Assembly (NCBI GenBank): GCA_902806565.1
Contig: CADCXA010000007.1
Coordinates: 558,001 to 622,000, forward strand
DNA: 64,000 bases
DNA from: Hypoxylon rubiginosum
Taxonomy: Eukaryota > Ascomycota > Sordariomycetes > Xylariales > Hypoxylaceae
Reading direction: 5' to 3'
The notes beneath the pieces were generated by a model. The model saw nothing but the letters and a program-made list of their open reading frames with translations. It was not told the DNA's origin and made no database searches. Position numbers and translations under genes: made by a program. Positions 24,889 to 40,936 of this stretch are shown piece by piece. Positions within the stretch are counted from its first letter, which is position 1. Each line of letters opens with the position of its first letter.

Positions 24889-27297
24889 ATGGCGTCCTCT
24901 CGCTTTGGTCCCGGCAGCTTGCTGCTGATCGCTGTTATCATCCTAATTGTCATGCCCCATAAAGCTGCAGCCTTCGGCGCTGGTAACATTCCTTCCATCG
25001 CTCAGGTCGAGGGTCACAACTGGCGCCATGGAGACATCGAAGACATGTTGAAGACGATTGCTTTCTTGCACGGCAAGAAATGGACTACGTTGATGGTACA
25101 GCGCACGTACTTTGGGAATTGGCTTCGCGATTACTCTCAGGCCGTCGACGTCGGCAGCTTGAAGGGAGTCAACGCAGCTACTATCCGCATCTTGGTCTGG
25201 GTTCTTTCTTTTCTCGCCAACGGATATGCCACCGAGGAGTTTGAGGTGACCGAAGAGCGCCTCGGCGTCTACCGACCTGAAGAGCACATCGATAACCCTC
25301 TCGGCTACGCCGACGGCGTGGATGCCAGGACATTTGACAAACGCCTTCGGGGACCGGTACTGCCTATCGAAACCGAGATCGACACGAGGACGGGTATGAA
25401 GAATTACATCGCCAACGAGCAAGGCAACTGGGCGACCAGCGCCGGCTATCTCCGCTTCAGCATCGGGCGAAGCGTTCACTTCGGTAGGCTTTACTGCCAC
25501 GGTTCGCACGGTAAGGGAAAGGAAGAGGATCTGTGCGAGGCCTTGAGATGCCTGGGCCAGTCGCTTCACTGCATGGAAGATTTCAGCGCTCACAGCAACT
25601 ACTGCGAACTTGCTCTGCGCGAAATGGGCTACCACGAGGTCTTCACCCACTGCGGATTAAATTCTCAGATCAACCTGCGCGGCAAGCAGGTATTTCCCCT
25701 CGTCACTGGAACCTTTGGCGGAGTCGATTTCCTTCACTCCGTCCTGGGCGAAGCCACCGACCATTTCACGCAGTCCGAGGTCGACCAGCTGGACATCGCC
25801 CTCAAAAACTCCGAGTCAGGCGCCGGCGCGGCTGGTGGAGGCGCTACGCGGGGGTTCGGCGGAGGGTTCGGAGGGTTTGGGGGTGGCACGAGTGATTTTA
25901 TCTCCCTCGTCGGCCAACTTCCGGGCATCGGGGGCGGGATGGCTTCCGAAGCGCGCGATCTAAAGCGGATGGCTGCCGAGCAGGAGAGGCGGAACGAGCA
26001 GGCGACGTACTCGGGCACGCGATCTAACGCGAATATCGTGCCAGGCATGAGCGAGAGTTTCGACCCCGTCAGGGTATCGAAGCAGATCTACCCTATACTA
26101 GAGTTCCGCGACAAGATTGTGAAGGCGATCAACAGGGGAATTGCCAAGATTCCGGGTCTGGAAAAGCTACTCGAGCACATCAGCGAAACCCTGACCGCGT
26201 TCGTCCTCGGCTTGTTAGCCCCGTTCGTGAGACCCATCATCAACGCCGTAACGAAAGTGCTAAAGGACGGCTCTTCCGGCGTCATCAACGCCAGCGCCAA
26301 CTCGCAGCTGGAGCCGTGGAAGAACCCGAGATGTACGGACCCGACGCACTCCATGCTGTCCAAGGACCACTTCACCAACGTTCTAAACCCGTGCGCCGGC
26401 AGAGTTGCCTCGACCATCCTCCAATACGTTGTGCCGTACGTATAGACTTGCGTCTCATAATACATTCGTCTCATATCACATTTGCACCTTGTATTATTAT
26501 GCTAACATCTCCCTAGGCGAGTTCTTTACGCGTGGGATAATCCAGACGTCCCCGTCGACGAGGTAGTAAACGACGTCATGCGCGCCTTTCACCATCCCGC
26601 GATTCGCGACGAACGGGTCGAGATCCAGCGCGACATGTTTAACACTGTACGCAAGTGGGCCGACGAGTATGGGGGACGTCACGAGATCAACCGCGTTTTG
26701 GGCTCCGAATCCGTAAAGAACGGCAAGAATCACATCCAAACCGGTCAGAAAAGCCACTCGCACGGCGGCGGCATATTTGACGGCGGTTTCATGGAGCAGC
26801 TAGGCCACGGTAGGCCTTCCGGGTCGCTCTGGTCGCAATGTGCTACGAGAGATCTCGACGCTATGGGTGCCGGGGGTCCTCAGCGTCCCGGTTCAGGTTA
26901 CGTGTCGCCTCGTCCGACGTCTTCGCATTCCCAGGGCCGTCCGACGGCAAGTCCGGGTTACGGTTACACGCCGCACCAACCTCCTTCGTACGGCGGTGAT
27001 AATCTTGCGCCGTATCCTAGCTACAGCGGTGGACCACCTGCTCAATACCAGGCGTACGGCCAACAAACTTATTCTCAGCAAGGGTACGGAGGAGCACCGC
27101 CTCAAGGTGAAGCTGCGTCGTACTACACCGCGACGCAGCCATCTCAGCCTCCACAACCCCAAGGGTACCCCGGTCAAGAGTACGGAGGACAGCCGCCTCA
27201 CCAGCAAGGGGGATACCCACCACATCAGCAAGGAGGATATCCACCTTACGGGAATCAGCAATGGGGAGGCGGGTACGGCAATCCCCCTTACCCCTAA
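24889..27297 (+). CDS. het-c: HET-C family heterokaryon-incompatibility protein
   Basis: Two exons, 24889-26435 and 26517-27297, give 775 residues. The intron (GTACGT..GCTAACATCTCCCTAG, 81 bp) splits a proline codon. A signal peptide or anchor (residues 9-27, LLLIAVIILIVMPHKAAA) is followed by the Het-C domain: AGNIPSIAQVEGHNWRHGDI, a central CLGQSLHCMEDFSAHSNYCE block (221-240) and a glycine-rich stretch (about 310-335, GFGGGFGGFGGG). The C-terminal 150 residues are Pro/Gln/Tyr/Gly-rich with QQGGYPPH-type repeats. In Neurospora, HET-C is a glycine-rich plasma-membrane-associated protein whose polymorphic segment around residues 200-240 governs vegetative incompatibility. The SLHCMEDFSAHSN pattern also resembles the His/Asp-rich core of zinc-dependent phospholipase C-like folds. 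It converges on the GT32 gene 486 bp away. Confidence 0.9.
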
Positions 27298-30566: not shown

Positions 30567-33500
30567 ATGGATCCCGTCGTAGGACGACTGCAAGCCGCGC
30601 TGGCATCCGCGACAAATGAAATTACGGTCGCAGCCGCTAATTTCAATTTCGATTTCAGCATCGTCAAGTACGAAGCGCCCAAGGAGTTCCACCCAGTCGG
30701 AAAGCTGCTATCCGCTAAAAGGAAATACGAGGCCGAGGACGGAAGCTGCCATATTATTGCACGCCGTCTGGCAGCCCTGTTTGCCGGTGTCTGTCCAAAA
30801 TGCCCAGAACTGATAAAGGCTTACGGGCAGCGAGCATCGGAGATTGCCGGAGAAGCTACCCGCAAAGAATCTAAAGAGCATTTTGACTCGGTCTTTTCGC
30901 AATACACCGGTGTCGACGCTACGTCAATGTGGGCCGCCGCTACGTCGTCAAAGGATGCGGACGGCAGCGCCATTCAGGTCCATCTGCTTGCCTTCTTGCG
31001 TCCATGTGGGAAGCTCCGCAAGCGATATCCATATGGGTCCAGATCATTGCCGAGCGACGCAGCGAGATTGCGCTTCGGTTGGAGCGCGGTGAGCTAATGG
31101 ACTACGCCACCGCCGCCGCTGCTGCTCAGCAAGAGATACCGCGAAAGCAGCTAGCTGAATGGGACGCAAGCGCTCGATCTTGGCTCGAAACTGCGAACGG
31201 GATCAAAAGGAAGGAACGGACACAGTTGAAAGTGATCTTGGAAAATATAGAGTCGCCAGTGCCTCGCCAACCGACCGTTTACAAGAACGTTGTCGAAGTC
31301 TGGAAGACGGCTACCGCCACAATGGACAACCTAGTCTCGGGTATAGCTCAGGAAGTTTATGCCGGAACGATGTCCGGAACGATGGCCGGAACGATGATCG
31401 GACTTTCTGCATGGCACTTGTATCCCGACATGCATGTGTTTGGAAAAAGGAATGTGCAAATTAAGATGCATGACTCTTTGATTCCGGCGGGCGGTACCCT
31501 ATCACTCGGATGTTCTCCGTCTGCCACAACGCCCGAGTCGGGTATCACATGGTCACTCTCCTTGGCCAATCTGAAATTTTACGGCGATCCGGTTGAAAGT
31601 ACTGCTCATATGCAAGGAGACTCCTCTAGGCTCACGATCGAAGGGTTCCGAGTCACCTTGCTCGGATGTGTTCTACGCATATGGAACATCGAACCAACGC
31701 AAGAGTCGATAACGATTAGGCTTTTGGCGGCGCTGTCGCTTAGGCTTCTGGGCCAACTGAGAGAATGGGACAACGAGTCCCGGAAAGACAATGGTTGGTA
31801 TGGTAACTATGTCACCGCGCTCACTCTGCTCGAAAAAGCCGAAGCCCATTACCGAGATGACGAGTTGGGCTCGATTTCCTTCATCAATCTAGGCAAAAAT
31901 CGTCCAGAGTTTCGACCAAAGGAATACACCAAAGACAACAAAAAGTTTGGTTCCCGACCATTCTTTGGTCTTCTTGACTCGAAAATATTTCTCAAATGCA
32001 TGAGAAGCCCAGAGGATAGAGTTAGTGCGCTGCGGCGCTGCGGCTCCCGGATTGAGAAGCTTCGCAACTCTCCCGCCATTATCCGATATAAGACGGCCGA
32101 GAACGAGGTCCATTATACGACCCTAACTGATAATTCTAGATGGGTGGACCCGGATTTGACCGTACCTGTGGGGTCGGCAATGCAATTCGACGACGCCGAT
32201 AGCTGTGATGGCAAAACTACCAGCAGCCATGGAGACGACAGGCATGGCACGGCTGGCTCCGACAAGAGAGAAAGTAACGAAGATGGCGATTATGAGGATA
32301 ACATCCTATATGCTGCTTTCGGTTCCCTAAACCTATCGGTAGAAGATGATGATGGTACCCAAGATGGTAGTGAGGAAAGCTGCGATGACGAATACGATTA
32401 TGACGAGAGTGACGATGAAAATGATGACAATGACCCTGCTCCCTTCACTACTCTTCTTTTTGTGTCCGAAGGCCAATCGTATCGATTCTATTTTGGCGAG
32501 TCCGATATAGCAGCTATTTTTGTCCCTGTCGGATACCATGGTACAAGCTTACCCTTCTTCGAGCCTGAAGACATCTTTTGGGCGTTAGACCAAGACGTAT
32601 TAACGGGGAATGGGCGCAACTTTATCGCCACCGATGCCATGATTCCTTGGCTATCACAATTCGAATATGCACTGCGATGTCTTCAGGGACTGTCTGGGCC
32701 GGTTATCAGCGTACGGACTCTGAAAAACACTTCCTACACTCCTAAGTGGGTAGAAGAACTCCAATCAATCTTCTCTACCAAAAAATGGGATCCTACAACG
32801 CCAGAGATACTCTCCGTTCTTGCGTATTTTCTTGGAGGTTGCAATATCGGTCCGTCAGAACTACGCAATAGTACGATGGGCATATCTTATGGAAATTCTA
32901 TCTACGTGCCCACCGAAGTGGGTTTATATTCTCTACGCTTCTGTCTTATGAATATGCTAACCTCTCCGCAGTTGCTGCATGATCCTCTCCTTTCCAGAAC
33001 AGAGCATCGTAGCGTCACTCGAATCCTGGGCAATGTCGGCCTGCCGGGGCTGGTGATCTTCTCATCCGTCGGTAATCCCAAGGCTGCGTCAGTGGACGAC
33101 ACCCTTTGGAAGGTAGTCAACCCAAACCAGTTTGATGGTCGACCGGAAAACCATTTCGGTTCAACGTCGATGCATCTCAGCTTTACACAGTGGGAGAGGT
33201 CGTTGGACATGGTTAGCTCACAAGGACAGCAGGACGTTCAGTTTACTAGAAAGGAGTCGGTTATTTCCGTTCGCGAATCAGGTTGCTGGATCGGCGACTT
33301 TGATGTTATGGCCGCATTGAGGAGTCCTCACATCTACACATTATCACCTCAGGCTCCTTGCGATCACGCAGGAGATAGTCAGCCTCCAAACCAGCGGTTG
33401 CGGTCCATCGAGTGCTGGGATGAGCTTCGGGAATGCCAGTCGGGCTTGGTAGTAGTTAGGGTCCACGGGAATTGGTTAGCAAGACTTGCTGTGACGGCCT

Positions 33501-33619
33501 ACCTAGCTCAACGAGCCGATCAATGCGGCGACGGCGGACCGAGAATCACGCTGCTGCCAGCCAAGGTGTGCTGGATTTGCCTCGAGCATGACTTTCATTC
33601 TAATATTTATATCTACTGA
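30567..33619 (+). pseudogene. Large fungal gene of unknown function with a frameshift
   Basis: Frame 1 is open from ATG 30567 to 31097. Frame 2 is open from before 30929 to 33619. The reading switches at about 30983-30995, where CTG CTT GCC TTC of the first frame runs into TGC CTT CTT GCG of the second. The joint looks like loss of four bases in a CTTG-type repeat. No GT..AG intron of sensible length can bridge the overlap. The joined product would be about 1000 residues. It has an N-terminal helical region (MDPVVGRLQAALASATNEI), a GLSAWHLYPDMHVFG block, a highly acidic stretch at about 32281-32440 (many Asp/Glu) and a C-terminal Cys-containing tail (RITLLPAKVCWICLEHDF). I believe it belongs to an expanded family of hypothetical proteins in filamentous fungi, but I know no function. 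The alternative is a sequencing error in an intact gene. Confidence 0.6.
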
Positions 33620-34657: not shown

Positions 34658-35510
34658 ATGAAGACCTTCGCCATTCTCGCCCTGCTGGGCGCTGCTCAGG
34701 CCCACTGTACGCTCATCATACATCTCCCTTCTAGTGCAACGCTAACAACTCTCAAGACACGTTTCCCGGCCTGGTCTACAACAGCGCGACAGAGGCAGAC
34801 TGGTCGTACGTTCGGAAAACTACCAACTTCAACTCGCACAGCCCCGTGACGGACGTGCAAGATTCGCAGATCCGCTGCTATGAGCTGGAAGCAGGGTCGA
34901 ACGGGGCCAAGACCATGGCGGTAAAAGCGGGCGACTCGGTGGGCTTCCGCGTCGACGGGGGTATCCAGCATCCCGGCCCCTTGGCCTTTTACATGGCGAA
35001 AGCACCCAACGGACAGACCTCCGAGACCTTCACCGGCGAGGGCGCGGTCTGGTTTAAGATCTATCAGGACGGCCCCACTTTCGGGGAAGAGATCACCTGG
35101 CCGTCCGCCGGGCTTAAGGAGGTGTCAGTCGAGATACCCACGTGTCTCGCGGAGGGATACTACCTGCTTCGTGTCGAGCATATCGCGTTGCATAGCGCGG
35201 GAAGTGAAGGCGGTGCTCAGGTATGGCTAGACAAGTCTCTTTGCATAGAGGCCTGAAGAATCACTAACGGATCGATAGTTCTACCAAGGATGTGCCCAAC
35301 TCCACGTTTCCGGCGGAGGATCCAAGACCTTTTCCGGCGTGTCGCTGCCCGGAGCTTACAAGGTAATGCCACTCTAAAGATACTTCGAATTCGTGAAAGG
35401 AAGAAAGTTCTAATACTTTACAGGCTACCGACCCAGGTATTCTCTTTCAGCTTTACTGGCCCGTCCCGACTAGCTACACGAACCCTGGCCCAGACGTAGT
35501 TAAGTGCTAA
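34658..35510 (+). CDS. AA9 lytic polysaccharide monooxygenase (GH61 type)
   Basis: Four exons, 34658-34706, 34757-35220, 35279-35362 and 35424-35510, give 227 residues. Introns are 50, 58 and 61 bp with clear CTAAC/CTAATAC branch sites. A 15-residue signal peptide ends at AQA, leaving His16 as the mature N-terminus. His16 and His88 (IQHPGPL) form the copper-binding histidine brace and Tyr173 (AQFYQ) is the axial ligand. His162 and Gln171 match the second-sphere pair. Family blocks WFKIYQDGP, YLLRVEHIALHSA, ATDPGIL and the YWPVPTSYTNPGP ending are all present. These secreted copper enzymes cleave cellulose or hemicellulose oxidatively. There is no linker or carbohydrate-binding module. Both cysteine positions (57 and 176) are conserved for a disulfide. 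It converges on the four-domain gene. Confidence 0.92.
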
Positions 35511-35803: not shown

Positions 35804-38800
35804 TTACACACCACCATAGACCAAAAGGCTTTGAATGTTGACCTTGCCAAAACCACGTCGGCGCAACTCTTCCCGGCCTCGGTGAACTGGGAACTCGGCC
35901 ACGACCATGATGCTGATATCCTCAGCATTGATGCCAGCCTCAACTAATAACTGTAGCATCGCACAAAGCGTTTCCCCCGTGGCAAGCACGTCGTCCACCA
36001 CGACGACCGACGCGCCTCTAGGCACCACGTCCCGCTCCATCTCGATCCTCTTCCCACTAGAATTACTGGATTTCAAAGAAGAAATATGCGACGAGGACTT
36101 GACGACGGAGATGGTAGGCGGGGGAAGCTTTCCCGCTTCGCGGATCAGCGCCAAGGGTATGTTGACTCGGGAGGCTAGTGCCGAAGCGTAGAGGAAGCCG
36201 CCGGCCTCGCAAGTCACCACCGCAGCGATACTGGCCCAATCACCGGCGAAGTAGGTTTGCAACAGAGACGCGCACAGCGATAGCCCGCCAGGGTGCTGGC
36301 AGATGTCGAGTACGTGGCGGAACATGATGCCTCGGCGTGGAAAGTCGGGTACCGGACGCACCATTTCGGCCAGTCGCTTCAGGTCCTCGTGAAAGAAAGG
36401 AAGTAGGTGATTTTCAGCAAATCTTTTTATCTTTTCGTCTCCGGGAGTATTATTGTCGAAGATAAGATCAGGGCGGTAGTTTAAGGTCGTCACATTATTA
36501 TTGTCATTACTACTCCCATACCTTCCCCCATGAATCCGTCGCGTCTTCTCGGTAGCTTCGACGCGGACATCGAGTAGCCTGCTCTCTGGTACCAAATGCG
36601 AAAGGGCGGCGACGGGCGCATCCTCTCTCATCCCGGCGACTAGCAGCACGTCCACATCTTCGGCGCTGTATACTACATCCAGAAAATGCTCCTCTCGCAG
36701 CCGAGGTCGCTGTCGTACCTGACCCTTGAAAAATGCCGTCAATGCCGGCCGGTGTTGCTCCTTGTAGGCGCGGTCTAGCAGCAGTCGATTCAAATCGGCA
36801 CCGCTCGCGGCCGCGTATTCTCTCTTGGTCGCATCGCTAATGCTAACCGCACGCGCTGTGAGGCCCGTATTATCAAATACAGAGACCCAGATGCCGGCGC
36901 AATAGTCTTTGCCGGCACAGATATCACCTGTCACAAGAACGATGAGCTTAGGTTCCTTAGGAGCTTTTGCAAACGGACAGGCGTAAGCTAGCACGCGGCA
37001 TGGGTCCAATCTGTGTTTGAGACGGGCCAGGCGCGGCCCGTTCGGTCCAAATGCCTTAGCGGCGAGGGCGGCGTCTCGTGGGTCCGGTCCAAGATCAGCA
37101 CCGTAGGCTCCGTTACTCAGGGGCAGCAGGCTCTCGGCGACGTTGTAGACCCACCTCACGACAGCTCGAGCGGCCTCGGTTCCATCTTGATCTCGGGGCC
37201 AGACTCCTGTCACCACACAGGCGAAATCCCAGTCTCGACAGCCGAAAGCAGTGGCATCGGCCGCAACGTCGCCGACCGCTCCGCCGCCTTGTAAGAGATG
37301 GAAATAGCAATGTGGCGAAGGACGAGTCGTAATAGCTTTCGCCAAGGTATCGGCGATTTCGACTGCTCCAATGTCCTTTAAGAATAAACATCGCTTGAAC
37401 GAGGAAGTCTTGCCGCCTCCGTGCCCGCCGTGCATCCCAGACATGTACATCTCCGTCTCGAACAGACCAACACTGTCTACGACCTTGGAGTTGTTTTCCG
37501 GCCCTAAAATTGTACTTATGGGCGTGGGCGCGGGCGTAGACGCTTCCAAGGAAAGTCTAGTCGTGGAAGATTCGAACATGGTCACGCCGAGATGCAACTG
37601 ACCGGCATCCCAGTACAGATACGCGTCGGCAGAACAGTTCCGGGGGAGCTCCCTGGCAACGAGTTTATCGAAATCGCTGAGCCTGCGTTGCGTCTCAAGG
37701 TTATCGCTTAGTGGGAAAACCCAGTTTCGAGTCAGGTAGGTCGGAGCTCTGTAGGCTTTGAAAGTCACGCTGATAACGATGCCAAAGTTGGTACCGGCGC
37801 CTTTCATCGCCCATAGAAGATCAGCTTCATTTTCCGGGCGCACGGCACCGGCTGGCTGGTGTTGGCTAGGGACATGGCCAACGCAAAGAACCTCGCCAGA
37901 GTTGACGCTGACCAGCACGGCGCCGATGATGGCGTCACAGGTAAGCCCATGCAACCTCGCTAGGTGCCCGATGCCGCCTTGTAGCCACAGTCCCGCGCCT
38001 ACGCTTGGGCGAGCCCCTAGAGGTACTGTCAGACCCGCTGTCATGGTCTTGTCGACGATATCCCCCGTCTTGCAGCCGGCCTCGGCGACAACCAAGAAAC
38101 CGGAATCGGAAGCTTCATCTTTGTTGTCTCCAGCCGCGAGAACATGAACTTGGTTGAAGGCGCTCATATCAACCGAGACCACGCCAGTCCAGACACATTG
38201 GCCACTGTGGCCCCCGCCTAGAACTGTTAGGCCGACCCCGTGCTTTAGAGCCCATCGAACGTAGTGCTGGACATGCTGAACCTCTGTCGGTCGGATAATT
38301 GAGGCCGGGCGGCGGAGGTAAGCCTCTCTATTTTTAATTGTCCTATGCCCTTTTATCGTTGGCACATGCACCGTCAATTCCGCCAGCGACGTCGCATGTC
38401 GGGTAAAGGACATCATGACGCCAGGCGAGCTGAATAGGAGATCGTCTCCGCGGGCTTCCTCGCAATGACCTAAGGCACGGCATACCTTGCGCCACTCGAC
38501 TCGGACGGTGTTGTCAACGTTCACGTCTTGCATGACAAATCCCGCGATGAAAGCGGCGAAACGGTCTATTGACTCGTCGTCATTTACCACGCTAACAACT
38601 CCGGTAGGGAAAGAAGCCGTTTGATGGCACGCCAAGCCAGGGAGGTCCAAGACCCCGTCCCGATGAAAAACCACCACCATACCGCCTTCTAGCTTAACAA
38701 GCATCTTCAGCGCCCGTTCAATGAACGCATGCTTGGGACTCATGCCGTACATGCTGTGACAAAAGAGAATGACATCGTATCTTTTGCCGTCGTCGCTCGT

Positions 38801-39235
38801 GCCGGTGTGAGTACGGCTATCCAGACCAAATGGGACTCGACGGATGTCGGGTAGGCTTCCTAGAGAGGGCAGCGGGGACTCCGTCTCTGCGTGAGAGCCA
38901 AGCCATTCCTCTAGATTTGCAGCAAACAAGACGTTGGGCTCAAACGCGTCGTATCTACTGATCTTTCGTCTCATGCGGCTGGGTAAATGTCCAAGTATGC
39001 TCTTCGGGCCGGGTCCGATTTCTAGCACGGAGATTTGGGTGCGCGAGTCGAAGAGCGGAGTCAGAAGCTGGGATAATTGAGGGACGATAAAGTCTTGGTA
39101 CGTCGCCCACCCCGAGCCTTGTACCAAGATGTTAAAGCCAGCACTGTTCTGTATGTCGGATAACGGCTGCGTCGGGCACGACGTCGCTGTAGCTTTCTGC
39201 CTGAGTGCACTCTTGAGGAACTCGAGAGTAGCCAT
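35804..39235 (-). CDS. Four-module fusion enzyme: methyltransferase-like, BBE-type FAD oxidase, phosphomevalonate-kinase-like, APRT-like
   Basis: A single uninterrupted ORF of 1143 residues. Module 1 (about 1-285) is SAM-methyltransferase-like with motif I VLEIGPGPKS at 70-79. Module 2 (about 290-760) is a VAO/BBE-type FAD oxidoreductase: RPASIIRPTEVQ, GLTVLGGGHS at 335-344 with His343 at the usual flavinylation position, GLWLQGGIGHLARLHGLTCD at 415-434, and a BBE-like tail RLKHRLDPCRVLAYACPF at 737-754. Module 3 (about 762-947) resembles animal-type phosphomevalonate kinase: P-loop-like GDICAGKDY at 770-778, ISDATKREYAAASGADLNRL, DRAYKEQHRPAL. Module 4 (about 948-1143) resembles adenine phosphoribosyltransferase: PVPDFPRRGIMFRH at 961-974 and the PRPP loop VVVVDDVLATGETL at 1077-1090. 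No signal peptide or membrane segment is seen. Reaction and order of catalysis are unknown. The gene is divergent from a GTP cyclohydrolase I gene 1.7 kb away. Confidence 0.85.
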   Translation of the reverse strand: MATLEFLKSALRQKATATSCPTQPLSDIQNSAGFNILVQGSGWATYQDFIVPQLSQLLTPLFDSRTQISVLEIGPGPKSILGHLPSRMRRKISRYDAFEPNVLFAANLEEWLGSHAETESPLPSLGSLPDIRRVPFGLDSRTHTGTSDDGKRYDVILFCHSMYGMSPKHAFIERALKMLVKLEGGMVVVFHRDGVLDLPGLACHQTASFPTGVVSVVNDDESIDRFAAFIAGFVMQDVNVDNTVRVEWRKVCRALGHCEEARGDDLLFSSPGVMMSFTRHATSLAELTVHVPTIKGHRTIKNREAYLRRPASIIRPTEVQHVQHYVRWALKHGVGLTVLGGGHSGQCVWTGVVSVDMSAFNQVHVLAAGDNKDEASDSGFLVVAEAGCKTGDIVDKTMTAGLTVPLGARPSVGAGLWLQGGIGHLARLHGLTCDAIIGAVLVSVNSGEVLCVGHVPSQHQPAGAVRPENEADLLWAMKGAGTNFGIVISVTFKAYRAPTYLTRNWVFPLSDNLETQRRLSDFDKLVARELPRNCSADAYLYWDAGQLHLGVTMFESSTTRLSLEASTPAPTPISTILGPENNSKVVDSVGLFETEMYMSGMHGGHGGGKTSSFKRCLFLKDIGAVEIADTLAKAITTRPSPHCYFHLLQGGGAVGDVAADATAFGCRDWDFACVVTGVWPRDQDGTEAARAVVRWVYNVAESLLPLSNGAYGADLGPDPRDAALAAKAFGPNGPRLARLKHRLDPCRVLAYACPFAKAPKEPKLIVLVTGDICAGKDYCAGIWVSVFDNTGLTARAVSISDATKREYAAASGADLNRLLLDRAYKEQHRPALTAFFKGQVRQRPRLREEHFLDVVYSAEDVDVLLVAGMREDAPVAALSHLVPESRLLDVRVEATEKTRRIHGGRYGSSNDNNNVTTLNYRPDLIFDNNTPGDEKIKRFAENHLLPFFHEDLKRLAEMVRPVPDFPRRGIMFRHVLDICQHPGGLSLCASLLQTYFAGDWASIAAVVTCEAGGFLYASALASRVNIPLALIREAGKLPPPTISVVKSSSHISSLKSSNSSGKRIEMERDVVPRGASVVVVDDVLATGETLCAMLQLLVEAGINAEDISIMVVAEFPVHRGREELRRRGFGKVNIQSLLVYGGV

Positions 39236-40936
39236 TTTGGAATTAAAACCGGTACGATGAAGCCTGTTATTGTGTATCTACCTTGGTAGGCAGATTGGGT
39301 AGAAATATGCGAGCTCGCACTCTGATTTCTGGTTTATTGTAGTTGTATTCTATCGCAGTCCGTATGATACTTATGCTAATTCCAGTATCTCGGAAGAAGG
39401 ACAGTTAGGGGCACGGCATCCAGTTCTCTTGAATGAAATGATCAATGTGATGTCGGGGCACGAGACGGGAAGATCGCTTGGGAAGACGTCGCAAAAGCCG
39501 AGGACCCCACACCCTGGGTTGCAGTGTAGGTACCTATGTATATATACTCGGTGACAAGTGGCGTTGAGCGTCCCGTGTCATTGGAAACTGAAGGCTGTGG
39601 ATTGCTCACCGGTCTTCCTATCGTAGTGATTGCTTACCTACGTATGTGCTACCAATGCCCAAACTTTGAACGCAAGTCATTCACAATCTTTCAGAGATGT
39701 TACTCTACCTAGCTGTAATCCAAAGGGTAGGTGCAGAAAAGGTAACTGGTTCTGTCCTCTAGTTTCTCTGGGTTACAAACCAACAGTGGCTTTGTATTTG
39801 CCAAATTCCTCTCCTATCTATTACCTAGCACTTACCTAGGCACGCCGGGACCCAAGCAAGCGTATGTGAGTTGGCCCGTGAAGCCAATCCCGAGAGATAT
39901 ACAGAAACGGACCGGTATTGTTCCTGTGGTTAGTTGGCAGAATAGAATGTAGTAGCGGATGTAGTAGCGGCCCGGAGGTCGTGGGTTGAATCTAGTATGA
40001 TAGACTTGTGATCTATCTCCGTTTACCCTACGTATGTTTCATATGGTAGATGCCTAGTAGGTGGTCAAGATATAGGTCTACACGCCGTATACCGCTGGGG
40101 AGATATGCGAGGACTCCCTTGCCACGGTGTTAAATATAACAACTATTTACTTCATCTTATTTGGATGGCTCAATCCGCCAACTTGCATCGAGACATCTTC
40201 ACATTAGATGGATACTTTCTAATCTGTAGAGTACATATAGGTAACTTGGTACTATTATCAATGGAGTTTCAAATCGCAATCTTTCCAGTCATCCTTGCTG
40301 GCACGAATTGGAGTCGACATATTGGCCAAACGATCATAAGGCTTTTTCCCGCTTGCTTTCTATCATGCCAAAGACTTTTAAAATTAATATAGTACAAATG
40401 GAAGTGTAACCTAGTCTTTGCCCGCCATAGCTACGTTTCGTCTAAAGGAGCCTCGCAAACTGCGGAAGACTTTGAAGACATGGCTTTAGCCGGACGGCTA
40501 GTTACAGAAAACGGATCATATGTTTGAACACAAATAAAAACTTTCAGGTGTTGTTTGGTCCGTTAATATGTTTGCCTCTTGCGATATTCAGAGACGGGGA
40601 TCACGTCGTCGTCAAACAGCTCCTCGCAACACCATTTCCCGGCCGGTGGTCTGCTCTGATAGTTTTGCCCTTGGCCAGACTAACTACGTACCTAGGTAGG
40701 CACTTATATAGCACATGTACGTCTGTTGGACCGTGTTCTTAAAGAACTATCTCTATTCCAAGTGGTCTTTTGATAATCGGCATCTGAATGTACCCACACT
40801 GCTCAGTGCCAACGACATAAGACTTGATTCACTGAATTGAAGAGACGTGATAATTTAACTTTGAATACTCTTGCTAATGTTACGTTCATACTATTAGAAA
40901 TCCATGATACAATCGATAGCAGCATGAAGGGCAGAA
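39236..40936. other. Divergent region between the fusion gene and the GTP cyclohydrolase gene
   Basis: The 1.7-kb gap has no supported ORF and should contain both promoters. It includes a TE-relic-like repeat copy at 40082-40144 (listed separately) and CCTAGG palindromes near 39833 and 40690. Confidence 0.45.
40082..40144. repeat. Dispersed repeat copy A
   Basis: The segment starting ACGCCGTATACCGC and ending TGTTAAATATAACAAC resembles 54521-54588, with about 10-15 differences including C-to-T and G-to-A changes. It is probably a fragment of an old mobile element. Confidence 0.6.

Follow-up and report, generated by a model that had tools for sequence, protein, structure and literature searches.

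In the fungus Hypoxylon rubiginosum (Sordariomycetes, Xylariales, Hypoxylaceae according to taxonomy), four enzyme domains are encoded one after another in a single intact reading frame, and this fusion is conserved in many filamentous fungi. It lies in the window, i.e., the whole stretch of 64,000 nucleotides that was analysed, and its parts are listed in Table 1. The last of the domains is a phosphoribosyltransferase (PRTase) that was possibly retooled from adenine phosphoribosyltransferase (APRT), and its specificity may possibly be new. We read the chain as a short specialised pathway of filamentous ascomycetes contained in one protein, its kinase acting from nucleoside monophosphate (NMP) to nucleoside diphosphate (NDP), and we give this reading not quite an even chance.

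Table 1. The fusion gene and its domains; positions refer to the window and residues to the encoded protein.
Feature	Position	Strand	Description
Four-domain fusion ORF	35804..39235	-	Single open frame, 3432 nt, 1143 aa
Class I SAM-dependent methyltransferase domain, histamine N-methyltransferase-like fold	38339..39235	-	Residues 1-299; predicted fold, conserved motif
VAO/BBE-type FAD oxidase	36950..38338	-	Residues 300-762; FAD_binding_4 310-450, weak BBE 726-749
P-loop kinase domain, P-mevalo_kinase family	36401..36949	-	Residues 763-945; P-loop GDICAGKD
APRT-like type I phosphoribosyltransferase domain	35807..36400	-	Residues 946-1143; PRPP motif VVVVDDVLATGETL, altered acceptor pocket

The ORF begins with ATG, and its sole stop codon is the terminal one. 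The five remaining frames across the same stretch contain 31–55 stops each, and when the 16 kb around the ORF were shuffled base by base 200 times, the longest stop-free run was 262 codons, compared with the 1143 codons found here. These counts bear out the sequence-only reading, in which the ORF had been described as intact. The closest named relative, P0001 (1142 aa), also comes from Hypoxylon rubiginosum and differs in 18 alignment columns, which argues against an assembly artefact. Many partial gene models do exist, some of them adjoining halves (SLS58_008226 and SLS58_008227 of Diplodia intermedia), and one could suppose that annotation or assembly fused separate genes into one. However, next to the uninterrupted frame itself, at least 120 full-length relatives (those listed) have the same three Pfam domains, and the start methionine falls in the same column in each of the 42 rows that make up alignment A1. 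Such an artefact is already refuted at the DNA level, and we regard it as scarcely credible.

Three of the four domains are recognised by Pfam above the cut-off, namely FAD_binding_4 (residues 310–450, E = 3e-15), P-mevalo_kinase (769–882, E = 6e-19), and Pribosyltran (977–1114, E = 1.3e-18), and the fusion therefore stands. The matches to Methyltransf_23 (53–186, E = 0.014) and BBE (726–749, E = 0.031) remain under it. Hence, the methyltransferase is not established by the Pfam scan and is identified by its predicted fold. With this addition, the four modules follow each other in the order first proposed from the letters, and the four motifs quoted at that time are all present within conserved stretches of the ORF.

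A full-length search, in which the 7997 candidates sharing most words were scored within a length filter, returned 1098 relatives at E-values up to 1e-3. The best 120 of these 1098 have a length of 1110–1257 aa, are 70–98% identical over 96–100% of the query, and show the same three domains in precomputed Pfam assignments. The organisms named among the matches listed are all, as we take them to be, filamentous ascomycetes. In the 42-row full-length alignment, the mean pairwise identity of the four domains is about equal (77.6–82.4%), and the SAM motif, the flavin-site histidine, the kinase P-loop, and the PRPP motif are invariant or nearly so across the family. A count of motifs in 360 fetched proteins, the best 120 of each of three length-filtered searches, is no census. 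In a scan of prokaryotes with alignment A2, the best 80 of 468 relatives match only residues 922–1143, essentially the PRTase domain, and the fusion was not seen among them; a scan of viral contigs with alignment A1 matched 14 stretches, none of which was confirmed as a relative.

Many relatives in the databases are partial, some lacking the methyltransferase–oxidase half. This counts against the one-protein pathway since the modules, if such proteins are real and functional, can work apart. Partial proteins on long contigs of Elaphomyces, Venturia, and Endocarpon, together with the Diplodia halves, hint that the gene has broken repeatedly or that its models were split, and a dispensable function would be in keeping with this. 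The two Diplodia proteins (P0204 and P0279) have consecutive tags and correspond to the kinase–PRTase part and the methyltransferase part, either as a split copy or as a split gene model. In P0232 of Apiospora rasikravindrae, the methyltransferase is joined straight to the kinase–PRTase pair without the FAD domain, which reflects either a true loss of that domain or a splicing error in the model.

In the methyltransferase domain, the SAM motif around residues 72–79 and Glu99 show no variation wherever a row extends over them (54 and 55 of 93). Folded separately, residues 1–300 reach a pLDDT of 91.6, and the structural matches are SAM-dependent methyltransferases. The predicted fold as a whole matches histamine N-methyltransferase, at an identity of only 13%. 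The ranking by Foldseek E-value places juvenile hormone acid methyltransferase first and histamine methyltransferase sixth, which speaks against the proposed pathway, and the domain on its own found no match up to E 10 among PDB sequences.

The FAD domain can be aligned to EncM and 6-hydroxy-D-nicotine oxidase and belongs, by its FAD_binding_4 match and the histidine of its GGGHS motif, to the VAO/BBE-type oxidases. It shares both features, as well as the BBE-type C-terminal region, with these two enzymes and with BBE-like oxidases (the motif herein being GGGH(S)); unlike them, it is joined to three other enzymes. The histidine, His343, occurs in all 54 rows that cover it and is the candidate site of a flavin that is probably bound covalently. 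Arg409–Pro410 (54 of 54 rows) lies near what we take to be the place of the second, cysteinyl flavin link of bicovalent BBE oxidases, in a part of the domain where the model is poor (pLDDT 25–45 in blocks of ten residues from 281 to 430). A reading as cytokinin dehydrogenase/oxidase was rejected: the cytokinin-binding C-terminal domain, presumably PF09265, is not one of the eight Pfam families listed with E-values of 10 or less, a list from which filtering removes most matches beyond about 0.1.

The kinase domain matches PF04275 with 68.5 bits (cut-off 33.8), and each of 11 pieces matches it with an E-value of at most 1. Within this genome the family was found in the fusion only, and it was found in 0 of 14 control prokaryotes. 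The initial description as phosphomevalonate-kinase-like is thus right with regard to the family. The function of a phosphomevalonate kinase (PMK) is doubtful because the equivalog of the animal enzyme, TIGR01223, is missed (28.2 bits, cut-off 188.15) and because the genome contains a separate ERG8-type gene. Shared with animal-type PMK are the GKD core of the P-loop and the positions of K804, YKE, and R829, whereas the basic residues of the PMK P-loop (GKRKSGKD in two PMK structures) are not retained, and 92 of 93 family rows have Asp or Glu in place of the second arginine of the "RR" pair in PMK structure 7xnd. Apart from PF04275, the domain gives a kinase signal only to a dNMP kinase family. 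Among the 50 matches listed in fold searches, which are filled by the other domains, the kinase is absent, and its fold is assigned from sequence.

The PRTase domain retains the PRPP-binding motif DD..[AS][TS]G (D1081 in 93, D1082 in 91, and G1087 in 92 of 93 rows). The 93 family rows were compared with human APRT and 75 bacterial APRT-like pieces (80 loci fetched, five of which gave none). A pattern that includes the PRPP motif and a GK served to select the bacterial pieces, which are therefore bound to be conserved in these columns; Arg67, Glu104, Tyr105, Asp28, and Lys88 (human numbering) lie outside the pattern. Two docking studies on APRT name Glu104 and Tyr105 as adenine-like contacts (PMC7414151) and Arg67, Glu104, and Tyr105 as adenine-binding residues (PMC8915579). 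At all five positions the 75 bacterial pieces carry the human residue. In the fusion family, Arg67 is replaced by Gly (91/93), Asp28 by His (87/93), and Lys88 by Glu (72/93); Glu104 corresponds to Ser (93/93) and Tyr105 to His (73/93, Tyr being kept in 15/93), a pairing that is less sure than that at Arg67 because the loop around 104–107 is gapped between the family and the bacterial and human groups. At Val25, most of the 93 rows have Glu or Asp and the window protein has Met. Phe26, Arg87, Lys91, and the PRPP motif of human APRT are kept.

The loop of the family has a conserved pattern of its own (Ser1049 in 93/93 and His1050 in 73/93 rows). Since the replacements themselves are conserved, a new function fits better than decay. 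The signature E-x-G-G plus S-H, as opposed to D/E-x-R-G plus E-Y, sets the fusion family apart from adenine phosphoribosyltransferases, the name under which many of its database entries are filed. The APRT equivalog TIGR01090 is missed as well (89 bits, cut-off 185.85), and the best-scoring NCBIfam model, NF002636, gives 99.1 bits against a cut-off of 125.

Without the loop Glu of APRT, the domain could also be slow or only bind a ligand, another point against the pathway. Taken further, it may bind PRPP or a nucleotide without turning it over and gate the methyltransferase–oxidase half, like PRTase folds of the PurR type. The complete replacement of the loop Glu alongside the retained PRPP motif agrees with such a sensor, as does the pur operon repressor among the sequence matches, but the loop letters are not random, and the P-loop of the kinase is intact. 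We consider this role improbable.

The genome (48.3 Mb, 70 contigs) contains one full-length copy of the fusion. A separate ERG8-type PMK is represented by three adjacent pieces (193.7, 65.7, and 63.8 bits, each alone under the cut-off of 376.95) and a separate APRT by two (131.7 and 25.1 bits, cut-off 185.85), the first of which has EARG and KEYG in their usual form. Hence, both the APRT and the PMK reaction appear to have genes of their own. This weighs against a salvage or housekeeping role, in which the protein would be an adenine PRTase fused to a phosphomevalonate kinase with extra domains, as source names such as "adenine phosphoribosyltransferase/phosphomevalonate kinase" imply. The fold and a match to PF00156 agree with that role, but Arg67, Glu104, and mostly Tyr105 are replaced and both NCBIfam equivalogs fall short; a housekeeping role is decidedly improbable.

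Among ten neighbouring ORFs scanned there is no obvious pathway cluster, which counts against the one-protein pathway. Nine of the ten gave matches: AA9, a glycosyltransferase, Het-C, a GMC oxidoreductase, DAO, two phosphatases, an exonuclease domain (below cut-off), and RTP1. The AA9 (lytic polysaccharide monooxygenase) exon at 34846–35256 of the window adjoins the fusion gene on the opposite strand, the Het-C heterokaryon incompatibility gene (PF07217, 824 bits) occupies 24889–26445, and an ORF of 896 aa at 30929–33619 has no Pfam match at E up to 1e-3. A DNA search of the same genome returned the fusion copy itself and one short upstream match: about 39832–39943 (some 110 bases, upstream of the gene) is 74% identical to contig C8:165578-165684, perhaps a dispersed repeat. 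A reading as a defence system was discarded, its two PADLOC matches (E 0.0023 and 0.0027) both being confined to residues 1064–1113.

In the proposed pathway, all four cofactors and cosubstrates (SAM, FAD, ATP, and PRPP) should be bound. The methyltransferase domain would place a methyl group on a small heterocyclic amine, at a nitrogen of its ring or side chain, and the FAD oxidase, probably with covalent flavin, would oxidise the methylated amine (or an alcohol) with O2; methylation and flavin oxidation of amines are ordinary alkaloid-type chemistry. The PRTase would then join the resulting base to ribose-5-phosphate from PRPP, and the PMK/dNMP-kinase-like domain would convert a phosphomonoester to a diphosphate, most likely NMP to NDP. 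We infer that the four domains work on one substrate line, in this order of steps, with the kinase after the PRTase and not before it. The sequence-only reading had already linked methyl transfer, oxidation, phosphorylation, and purine ribosylation in one chain. Methylation, oxidation, phosphorylation, and phosphoribosylation are a fair reading, but the word "purine" finds no support, given that the adenine-contact residues are replaced.

A PRTase adjoining a phosphate-to-diphosphate kinase suggests either the step from NMP to NDP or the making of a sugar diphosphate donor. In the latter case, the kinase would precede the PRTase and turn a sugar phosphate, e.g., ribose 1,5-bisphosphate, into the 1-diphosphate donor for its neighbour, a type of reaction performed by PhnN. 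The adjacency of the two domains, the proteins of ~390–400 aa among the matches listed that contain only this pair (and may be broken gene models), and the change at Arg67 are in line with it; in general, PMK-type chemistry yields a diphosphate, and PRTases use a sugar 1-diphosphate. Nothing points to a sugar phosphate, however, as the dNMP kinase family is the only other kinase signal, and we see just a small chance for this order.

The history of the gene was followed in a tree of 40 rows (quick search, LG+G4), in which lichen and MAG records could be mis-binned. The window copy, two further Hypoxylon rows, and three Daldinia rows form one strongly supported group, and the seventh row of the Hypoxylaceae, Parahypoxylon, groups with Xylaria. 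A tree that keeps the seven in one group is not rejected (p-AU 0.123), and the window copy may have been inherited vertically within its family. A single clade is rejected for the six Leotiomycetes rows, all Helotiales by checked taxonomy (p-AU 3.2e-6, with a log-likelihood lower by 315.5). For 14 Sordariomycetes rows the rejection is weaker (p-AU 0.0094), and for 12 Xylariales-type rows one clade is not rejected (p-AU 0.087); these p-values are optimistic because the tests were chosen after the first tree was seen. Most other class labels are those we presume. The labels change nine times for six groups, compared with a shuffled mean of 21.4, and much of the gene's history hence follows taxonomy. 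The copies of Trichoglossum and Lepraria, which we take to be of different classes, are 90.9% identical, whereas two Hyaloscypha copies of one species complex share 79.0% and stand in different parts of the tree. Horizontal transfer between fungi and old paralogy with loss both fit.

Multifunctional enzymes are known from fungi, such as AROM and Cns3 of cordycepin biosynthesis, the latter joining a kinase to a phosphoribosyltransferase. Like the fusion, both unite several enzymes per chain; their domain families and order differ. The domains described here are of known kinds, and the architecture is already in databases under phosphoribosyltransferase-type names. In the open-access literature, outside which most subscription journals lie, no title or abstract start among the papers listed names the fusion. 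What is new is possibly a variant of the multifunctional fused enzyme, with a PRTase specificity that may be new too.

With a last module that lacks the usual adenine-handling residues, the chain may make a modified nucleotide of unknown identity. More specifically, its product could be a nucleotide, as mono- or diphosphate, that is N-methylated and oxidised and whose base is not adenine, formed by a new phosphoribosyltransferase specificity. The protein would then be a complete pathway towards a natural product or cofactor of nucleotide type, and this pathway would have been passed between filamentous fungal lineages; on balance, we think this full version unlikely. A widespread and strongly conserved four-enzyme chain without known function is unusual, and since each of its domains is of a known kind with a known cofactor, the substrate can be sought directly by four orthogonal assays.
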